A program made the translations under genes and the position numbers. The notes under the pieces were generated by a model. It ran no database searches and had not been told where the DNA came from. It saw nothing but the letters and a program-made list of their open reading frames with translations. Positions 21,258-23,348 of a stretch of 64,000 nucleotides of DNA are shown one piece after another; the stretch's first letter is position 1, and every line of letters starts with the position of its first letter. Source of the DNA: Prevotella sp. (lineage in GTDB: Bacteria > Bacteroidota > Bacteroidia > Bacteroidales > Bacteroidaceae); assembly GCA_016291495.1 (NCBI GenBank), contig JAEEXI010000006.1, forward strand, positions 119,043 through 183,042. Reading direction: 5' to 3'.

Positions 21258-23348
21258 ATGTATAAACCACTTTTCAATCAGCGCAAGGCTCTCCGTTTCC
21301 GTCAGTTTTCGAGGAAACGCTATGCTCTGTATGCCTGTTTAGGAAAGGTTGTCACCATTGGGGTGCTGAGCGTGGCTACACTGCGCGCAGCAGCAAGTAC
21401 CGCTGCAGACGATTTGACTGTGGCTGGCACACCCACAATGGTCAGCGATTCCGTTGCCGACAAGGAGGCGACACTCGACGATGTCGAGATAACAGGCTCA
21501 CGCGCACCGCTTGCATTGGGGCAAGCAGCGAGAATGGTCACTGTACTGACGCGCAACGAGATTCAGGCGGCGCCAGTACAAAGTATTAACGATTTGCTGA
21601 AGATGGCTGTTGGCGTGGATGTGCGCCAGCGCGGACCCATCGGAGCCCAGACGGATGTCAGTATCCGAGGCGGAACGAGCGAGCAGATAACGATTCTGCT
21701 GAACGGCATCAATATCTGTGACCCACAGACGGGACATAATGCCTTCGACCTGCCCTGCGACCTCAGCGACATTGAACGCATAGAGGTACTGGAAGGTCCT
21801 GCAGGACGAGTGTTTGGCACGTCGTCATTGGTGGGTGCCATCAATGTCGTGACATCTTCCTCCCCTAAGTTAGGGGAGGTCAGGAGGGGTCTGAACGTAC
21901 GAATGGAAGGCGGGTCGTATGGTTATCTGTCAGCGGCGACAAAATTATCAATTGTCAATTCTCAATTGTCAATTAATTACACCCGCAGCGATGGCTACAG
22001 CCGTTCGAAGGCAGGTGCACTAAACAGCGACTATCAGGGAGGGAAGGTCTTCTATCAAGGCAGCTACTCTCTCACCACTCACCACTCACCTCTCACCTCT
22101 ACGATTTCCTGGCAAGCAGGACTGAGCATCAAGGGGTTTGGGTCGAACACCTTCTATAGTGCCAAGTTCGACGAGCAGTACGAGAAGACCACCAAGCTCT
22201 ATACTGCCCTTCAAGGAGAGATGACAATAGGGAAACTGCATATCCGTCCTGCCATCTATTGGAATCGCGGCTACGACAGATTTGAACTGATGCGTGGATC
22301 AGAGGATAAAGTGCCGTTCAACTACCATCGCACTGATGTCTTTGGCATCCACCTCAACAGTTGGTTTGACTGGCTGTTGGGACGAACAGCCTTGGGGGCG
22401 GAGTTCCGCAACGAAGACATTGTCAGTACCAACCTCGGTGAGCCGCTGAATGAGCCGTTCAGTCATTATAAGGTAGGACTGAACCGCTCGAACCTCTCGT
22501 TCCATTTGGAACATAACATCCTGTTGAAGCGTTTTACCCTCTCGGCAGGTTTCATTGCCGTGAAGAACACCTGGAACCAGATGCCTTTTACGCTCTATCC
22601 AGGTGTGGATGCCAGCTATCGCATCGGCAGCCACTGGAAGGTATATGCCTCCTATAACTCCTCATTGCGTATGCCGTCGTTCACGGAACTCTATTATAGC
22701 GTGGGAGGTCATAAGGCAGACAAGTATCTGAAACCCGAGGAGTTGCATGCCGTTGAAGGGGGTGTGAGATACGGCAATCGTTGGTTGACGGCAAAGGCAA
22801 GTATCTTCCACCATCATGCCCGCAATATGATTGACTGGGTGATGGACACCCGTGACCCAGATGGCGTTTGGCAGAGTGTGAACCATACGAAGGTAAATAC
22901 GCTGGGGCAAGAAATTTCTCTTACCTCTCACCTCTCACCTCTTACCTCTATAAGTCTCGCCTATTGTCATTTGCATCAGCAAAAGCAGGAGGCAGATTAT
23001 CTCCAGTCGCAATATTCATTGGAGTATCTGCGCCATAAGGTGACGACCCAGTTGACTCTTTCCCTCGGTAGTATTCTCTCACCTCTCACCACTCACCTCT
23101 CACCACTCACCTTAACGATAGGCTATCGTTGGCAGGACCGCATGGGCAGCTATACCAACGTCGATGGAGAGGTGTGTGACTATCATCCCTATTCCGTTGT
23201 CGATGCCCGCCTCGACTGGCATACCGACAGCTATCAGCTCTATCTCGAGGCCAACAATCTGACGGGTCATCAATATGTCGACTACGGCAATGTACCCCAA
23301 CCAGGCTGTTGGGTCACAGTGGGAGCAAAATGGCATCTAACTTTCTGA
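21258..23348 (+). CDS. TonB-dependent outer-membrane receptor, BtuB-like
   Basis: Plug domain VQSINDLLKMAVGVDVRQRGPIGAQTDVSIRGGTSEQITILLNGI; C-terminal barrel strand ending in F. Confidence 0.9.
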   Translation: MYKPLFNQRKALRFRQFSRKRYALYACLGKVVTIGVLSVATLRAAASTAADDLTVAGTPTMVSDSVADKEATLDDVEITGSRAPLALGQAARMVTVLTRNEIQAAPVQSINDLLKMAVGVDVRQRGPIGAQTDVSIRGGTSEQITILLNGINICDPQTGHNAFDLPCDLSDIERIEVLEGPAGRVFGTSSLVGAINVVTSSSPKLGEVRRGLNVRMEGGSYGYLSAATKLSIVNSQLSINYTRSDGYSRSKAGALNSDYQGGKVFYQGSYSLTTHHSPLTSTISWQAGLSIKGFGSNTFYSAKFDEQYEKTTKLYTALQGEMTIGKLHIRPAIYWNRGYDRFELMRGSEDKVPFNYHRTDVFGIHLNSWFDWLLGRTALGAEFRNEDIVSTNLGEPLNEPFSHYKVGLNRSNLSFHLEHNILLKRFTLSAGFIAVKNTWNQMPFTLYPGVDASYRIGSHWKVYASYNSSLRMPSFTELYYSVGGHKADKYLKPEELHAVEGGVRYGNRWLTAKASIFHHHARNMIDWVMDTRDPDGVWQSVNHTKVNTLGQEISLTSHLSPLTSISLAYCHLHQQKQEADYLQSQYSLEYLRHKVTTQLTLSLGSILSPLTTHLSPLTLTIGYRWQDRMGSYTNVDGEVCDYHPYSVVDARLDWHTDSYQLYLEANNLTGHQYVDYGNVPQPGCWVTVGAKWHLTF
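21855..21895 (+). repeat. Palindromic repeat element copy inside the TonB receptor gene
   Basis: cttcctcccctaagttaggggaggtcaggaggggtctgaac. Confidence 0.9.
21943..21978 (+). repeat. In-gene heptanucleotide array (caattgt/caattct/caattgt)
   Basis: aattatcaattgtcaattctcaattgtcaattaatt inside receptor ORF, encodes KLSIVNSQLSIN. Confidence 0.85.
22068..22103 (+). repeat. In-gene heptanucleotide array (CTCACCW)
   Basis: ctcacca ctcacca ctcacct ctcacct. Confidence 0.9.
22916..22951 (+). repeat. In-gene heptanucleotide array (CTCTYAC)
   Basis: ctcttac ctctcac ctctcac ctcttac. Confidence 0.9.
23075..23113 (+). repeat. In-gene heptanucleotide array (CWCTCAC)
   Basis: ctctcac ctctcac cactcac ctctcac cactcac. 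Confidence 0.9.

Follow-up and report, generated by a model that had tools for sequence, protein, structure and literature searches.

A mirror-symmetric palindromic repeat of Prevotellaceae translated in frame within protein linkers

Rumen and gut Prevotellaceae carry a family of short palindromic DNA repeats that lie in frame within conserved genes, almost always run in one direction there, and have brought about a net replacement of protein linkers. Beside its hairpin, each repeat keeps a purine segment that covaries with one of the arms as its mirror image. We consider it likely that these repeats are a small dispersed, REP-like DNA element, whose shared reading frame is a survivor effect and whose orientation needs a further cause. 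Copies would spread as folded single-stranded DNA, probably helped by a Y1 (HUH) transposase; those that fall out of frame or disrupt a gene would be lost, and the remainder would survive in solvent-exposed, length-tolerant linkers, where the old linker sequence was presumably deleted. The encoded peptide is most likely just tolerated, without a function of its own. Palindromic repeats that lie in frame within genes are already known, both as Rickettsia palindromic elements (RPEs) and as REPs in genes. What is new is the family itself, its mirror covariation, a polarity within genes that goes further than stop codons require, and the way in which the same linkers have been overwritten again and again. 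Here, the same linkers in conserved proteins have repeatedly been built from selfish or structural DNA, and the genomes that bear the element are a natural experiment in the origin of new loops.

Two copies in the window and the wider family

The window, a stretch of 64,000 nucleotides from a Prevotella sp. contig, holds two copies, both of them solitary 5′ halves of the A form. The first (21857..21896, + strand; DNA TTCCTCCCCTAAGTTAGGGGAGGTCAGGAGGGGTCTGAAC, peptide SSPKLGEVRRGLN) lies in the gene of a TonB-dependent receptor with Plug and beta-barrel Pfam domains (21258..23348, +). The second (20976..21015, −; peptide SSPKLGETRRGLN) falls in the linker between the zinc ribbon and the ATPase of RadA, likewise assigned by Pfam, whose gene (19725..21236, −) is the divergent neighbour of the receptor gene. 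The two copies are identical at 36 of 40 positions (90%; readings SSSPKLGEVRRGLN and SSSPKLGETRRGLN) and use one common phase of the element, giving the peptide SSSPKLGE(V/T)RRGLN. A sequence-only reading of this DNA had described the same element in the same frame and orientation in both genes, with the receptor copy directly behind a plug-domain motif. Both statements hold, as GAINVVT immediately precedes the element. The same reading counted five differences, two of them synonymous; the synonymous pairs (cct/cca and ggt/gga) are as described, but the total is four over the 40 nt, the other two falling in a single codon (gtc/acc, the V/T of the peptide). An assembly artefact is ruled out, because the RadA insertion is common to four genomes (L011, L013, L052, and L111) and the TonB-receptor insertion to three (L152, L103, and L111).

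Nor is the match between the two genes due to chance, since the GTDB contig set contains 24 occurrences of the exact 37-nt core. Each of them is in a metagenome-assembled genome of Prevotellaceae, Bacteroidaceae, or Bacteroidales, and the carriers are rumen or gut organisms. Pattern searches, which may miss degenerate or diverged copies, place about eight element sites in the window's own 2.88-Mb genome and 12 matches in another (G160). Most records are metagenome-assembled genomes, some of them incomplete, and ORF length was used in place of gene calls, except for genes confirmed by Pfam. On this footing, the element is in frame in more than 15 gene contexts. It had no match in phage and plasmid collections, and Rfam returned nothing beyond one sub-threshold chance match. 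The open-licence literature contains no description of the family for Prevotella or Bacteroidetes; an earlier one may exist outside it. Large primase/VirE-like ORFs, named by eye, bear the element at eight loci (L095, L098, L100, L101, L104, L107, L108, and L113); several hold more than one each, some with expanded loops (GMTEAEGETAGATAGAAAGAA). Such ORFs may be a reservoir of the A form.

Halves, doublets, and the mirror segment

The 109 listed halves share one grammar: a left arm, the core TAAGTTA (or TGAGTCA), a right arm, a linker, a third segment, and TCTGAAC. In the receptor copy, the arms and core form a perfect 21-nt palindrome, CCTCCCC-TAAGTTA-GGGGAGG (21859..21879, +), a hairpin with a calculated DNA folding energy of −10.7 kcal/mol (z −2.8). 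Downstream lies GGAGGGG (21883..21889, +), the mirror image of the right arm GGGGAGG and a putative reverse-Hoogsteen third strand, and then the conserved tail TCTGAAC (21890..21896, +), which is common to all sub-forms. The linker between right arm and third segment has 2–4 nt in the general grammar, stays within 1–4 nt as a rule, and is a mini-hairpin (GCCGATAGGC) in some C forms. Right arm and third segment read GGGGAGG/GGAGGGG in form A, GGGGGAG/GAGGGGG in B, GGAGGGG/GGGGTGG in C, GGGGAC/CAGGGG in D, and GGGGG/GGGGG in E, with GGGGAGA/AGAGGGG and GGGGGAA/AAAGGGG as rarer sub-forms. The third segment thus mirrors the right arm, the sole regular departure being the T opposite A of form C. 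When T opposite A is counted as a match, 39 of 42 positions obey this rule (permutation p = 0.003, one representative per distinct right arm, n = 6). The full form is an inverted doublet of fixed polarity, in which a loop connects a 5′ half (A, B, or D) to an inverted 3′ half (C or E). Such REPIN-like doublets make up most of the family, and solitary 5′ halves are also common.

Mirror purine tracts beside a hairpin are what an intrastrand purine-motif triplex requires, its triads being G.GC, A.AT, and T.AT. The arms conform to the purine-class rule of three segments (a pyrimidine arm, its purine complement, and a mirror purine third segment), each of 6–15 nt with at most one mismatch: forms A and B match at 7/7 positions, as does C with T.A.T. 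The ITxF loop rule asks for 1–6 nt, and the first loop, TAAGTTA, has 7, or fewer if its outer A-T pairs are assigned to the stem. That the mirror was kept through independent changes of the arms fits an intrastrand purine-motif triplex like that of the published TM motif, and on its sequence the element is a putative triplex of this kind. Three other sources of the symmetry were considered and rejected. A G-quadruplex is not its main cause, as forms B, D, and E lack four G-tracts per strand and the mirror rule runs through all forms. If the left arm instead formed Watson–Crick pairs with the third segment, forms A, B, and C would contain mismatches. A cause at the level of the peptide is discounted by the intergenic copies, which keep the mirror in their DNA.

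A close structural parallel is TM_ECO (PIT elements), which folds as a triplex in vitro but was not seen to do so stably in vivo, and which was counted in proteobacterial genomes and analyzed near ORFs rather than as translated within them, in a study that emphasized Proteobacteria and Cyanobacteria (PMC4666352). The Prevotellaceae element shares with it a C-rich arm, a loop, a G-rich arm, a 3-nt linker (TTA/CCG type), and a second G-rich segment in mirror register, and both occur as inverted pairs. Unlike TM_ECO, it has other arm sequences, so that the exact pattern CCCTCNCCC N3-6 GGGNGAGGG N3 GGGNGAGGG does not match, as well as a 7-nt core, translated intragenic copies, and covarying sub-forms. 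Mirror covariation is comparative evidence that repeats of this kind maintain a triplex-like fold, a point that could not be demonstrated in vivo before. As an unbiased check, a different palindrome, CCCCTCTCC-NNN-GGAGAGGGG, was queried alone in 198 Bacteroidota genomes, and at all 15 of the loci then read it proved to be accompanied by a mirror purine segment, mostly GGGGTGAGG. Several Bacteroidota families possess this TM-like motif and its mirror segment (L137–L151).

Reading frame and orientation

The frame needs no special mechanism. The core TAAGTTA places TAA or TAG in two of the three sense phases, and stops likewise fall in two of the three antisense phases, such that a solitary half has one stop-free phase in either orientation; most doublets are alike in this. 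Because stops close the other two phases, a surviving intragenic copy must use the one that is open, and a shared frame is predicted by survival alone. Loops of intragenic doublets keep both halves open, with lengths of 1 mod 3 where the doublet ends in E and, for most, 0 mod 3 where it ends in C. The sequence-only reading had proposed either an insertion mechanism tuned to coding sequence or strong filtering. Filtering suffices for the frame, but stop filtering does not suffice for the orientation.

Orientation and frame were tabulated for copies within and outside genes, as that reading had suggested. GTDB contains 24 exact A-form copies, 21 of which read in sense and in frame within ORFs of at least 235 aa; of the others, one is antisense in an AMP-binding (MenE-like) gene (L109), one is intergenic, and one provides the end of a gene on the opposite strand. 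Intragenic 5′ halves of all forms number 39 sense and 1 antisense. Clustered by flanking protein sequence, their sites number 23 sense and 1 antisense (binomial p ~3e-6), in a clustering that is approximate, with some unrelated sites merged, some homologous ones split, and the doubtful locus L071 included; a stricter hand count gives about 22:1. Outside genes, 15 of 27 intergenic 5′ halves lie between convergent genes, near gene ends and stop codons, and those between co-directional genes are oriented 6:4. Sub-forms differ in location, with 25 of about 32 A-form copies inside long ORFs and 11 of 17 B-form copies outside them. As the flipped element is equally translatable (all solitary halves and most doublets), the sense bias cannot be put down to stop codons. 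It is genuine, and something further must underlie it: insertion could be strand-specific with respect to transcription, or the antisense insert could be selected against. A bias that exceeds the demands of stop codons allows the two to be told apart by direct test.

Selection alone would account for the bias if the antisense peptide (FRPLLTSPNLGE) were more harmful than the sense peptide (SSPKLGEVRRGLN) and hence purged, a proposal with a substantial chance of being right, if one short of even. The antisense A peptide is the less hydrophilic of the two (mean hydropathy −0.2 vs −0.93 for sense), and the near-even intergenic orientation also argues for selection. The two readings of a D-E doublet, however, are almost equally hydrophilic (−0.90 vs −0.81), and still every D-E doublet seen inside a gene is sense. 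Antisense-type peptides (QTTPxPPNLGGE and SDPQPPNLGGL) are moreover tolerated as 3′ halves in many genes, and the antisense copy in the MenE-like gene persists.

Alternatively, a single-strand-specific transposase might insert the folded element into the exposed non-template strand of transcribed genes, such that orientation is set at insertion relative to transcription and only the frame is filtered later. A sense bias of 23:1 despite equal translatability is what such a process would leave, and HUH Y1 transposases do work on single-stranded DNA (PMC6006769). Four D-form intergenic copies that lie at the 3′ end of the upstream gene and in the same orientation (L003, L072, L078, and L086) point the same way. 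The co-directional intergenic copies, by contrast, show no clear bias outside genes, and no transposase is tied to the element, which leaves strand-specific insertion a tentative proposal that is rather less likely to be right than wrong. In a more explicit version, which we regard as doubtful, the elements, single-stranded, folded, and possibly triplex, insert into the non-template strand of genes that are being expressed, and the same end always faces upstream. If true, such transcription-coupled insertion would represent a class of mobile DNA that writes itself one-directionally into protein linkers.

Linkers, related repeats, and a candidate helper

The element has not simply lengthened its hosts. 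The TonB-receptor linker is 14 aa long with it and 9 aa in the orthologue of G035 (+5 aa); RadA likewise gains 5 aa over orthologues without the element and CobQ about 6, and in the M16 peptidase of the window's own genome a doublet of ~35 aa yields a net gain of 7. Since proteins with the element exceed orthologues without it by only +5 to +8 aa, the old linker is gone, a variable stretch having been replaced rather than cleanly entered. The target-site duplications that the sequence-only reading had suggested looking for could not be cleanly defined at these replaced linkers, and none was definable genome-wide, as a filled linker departs from an empty one in more than the inserted element.

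In other species these linkers contain different repeats, also in frame, among them heptad arrays, other palindromic doublets, and remnants. One and the same linker can hold different repeat families across many related species, always in frame, as in CobQ (L229–L239), the M16 peptidase (L212–L227), and the TonB receptor (L152–L181). Beside the element, the receptor gene at 21258–23348 itself contains four in-frame heptad arrays, all on the + strand: one of AATTGTC (21943..21975; peptide KLSIVNSQLSIN) and three of CTCACCN (22069..22100, LTTHHSPLTS; 22918..22949, LTSHLSPLTS; and 23076..23112, ILSPLTTHLSPLT). Of 14 CTCACCN arrays inspected across the window's own genome, 11 fall inside ORFs of 376–969 aa, all in the sense that avoids TGA. 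This preference and the occupation of shared linkers by other repeats support strong filtering at permissive sites. CTCACCN and AATTGTC arrays are found in frame in further long ORFs of this genome (e.g., L183, L185, L186, L199, and L205–L211), which has many more heptad arrays besides.

The presence of heptad arrays and other repeats in the very linkers that the element occupies, and net replacement instead of clean insertion, could also suggest that there is no mobile element at all, and that recurrent errors of local DNA synthesis or template switching fill linkers with low-complexity DNA. The 40-nt A form makes this improbable: in unrelated genes and species alike it is near-identical, arms covary, and the architecture of doublets is fixed. 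A functional peptide, such as a tag for binding or processing that many proteins have recruited in sense, is more improbable still. It would explain why nearly the same peptide appears in unrelated proteins, but those hosts differ in compartment and function (RadA, TonB receptor, CobQ, MurF-Alr, M16 peptidase, and PP2C), unrelated repeats occupy the same sites in other species, and the mirror symmetry persists at the DNA level in intergenic copies.

The family has further close parallels among known systems. RPE-1 and other Rickettsia palindromic elements sit in frame within protein genes (PMC2229807; PMC3767692), and the Prevotellaceae repeats resemble them as dispersed palindromes with a stop-free reading, in frame inside conserved proteins. 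RPEs, however, are palindromes of 105–146 bp with a different sequence, from Rickettsiales, whereas the present family consists of a 40-nt half or an inverted doublet in Prevotellaceae, its exact core matching genomes of the order Bacteroidales only; it is further set apart by mirror third segments, a measured 23:1 sense polarity, and linker replacement. GTAG and CGTC REPs/REPINs, for their part, include some in-gene, in-frame copies and have intergenic copies near gene ends (PMC3733652, PMC3116915). The present repeats are likewise short hairpins, single or as inverted dimers, with intergenic copies near gene 3′ ends. Unlike canonical REPs, they have no GT[AG]G foot, the 5′ flank being TTCCT, TTCTC, or TGT by sub-form, and a mirror purine segment follows the arms. 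Their copies per genome are few by the patterns used, which may miss degenerate ones, and none was found beside a RAYT gene in the subset of Y1 regions checked. The family works like REP/REPIN and yet is not filed as a member, because the GT[AG]G foot is absent and no RAYT adjacency was seen at the Y1 genes checked.

A helper transposase or RAYT, which the sequence-only reading had also raised, has a candidate for which no link to the element was found. The window's own genome encodes a Y1_Tnp (Y1/RAYT-like) protein of ~264 aa with NHFH and YIHQNP motifs, in which it resembles subclass 2.6 TnpA_REP, Bacteroidetes Y1 transposases with atypical, non-GTAG flanking structures (PMC6006769). Unlike in that subclass, no such structure adjoins the Y1 genes tested here: 13 regions around a subset of Y1 genes contained no element, and the flanks of 11 Y1 genes held only one unrelated GC-rich hairpin and no matching palindrome. 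Y1 genes occur in most element-bearing genomes and also in several genomes without A-form matches, and a Y1 match was not detected in the element-bearing G035. To cast the Y1 protein as the helper is a guess.

The window has other features of note. A CAATGGG heptad array (31819–31852) lies inside a radical SAM/HemN-like ORF (31238–32341), and long intergenic arrays of 11-bp repeats, whose unit is about one helical turn, are found at 4673–4915 and 19364–19489 (ACCAACTCTAT and TTGCTCATAGG). Positions 32426–41617 encode a 3063-aa NRPS with three AMP-binding domains, two condensation domains, and a terminal NAD-binding reductase-like domain.
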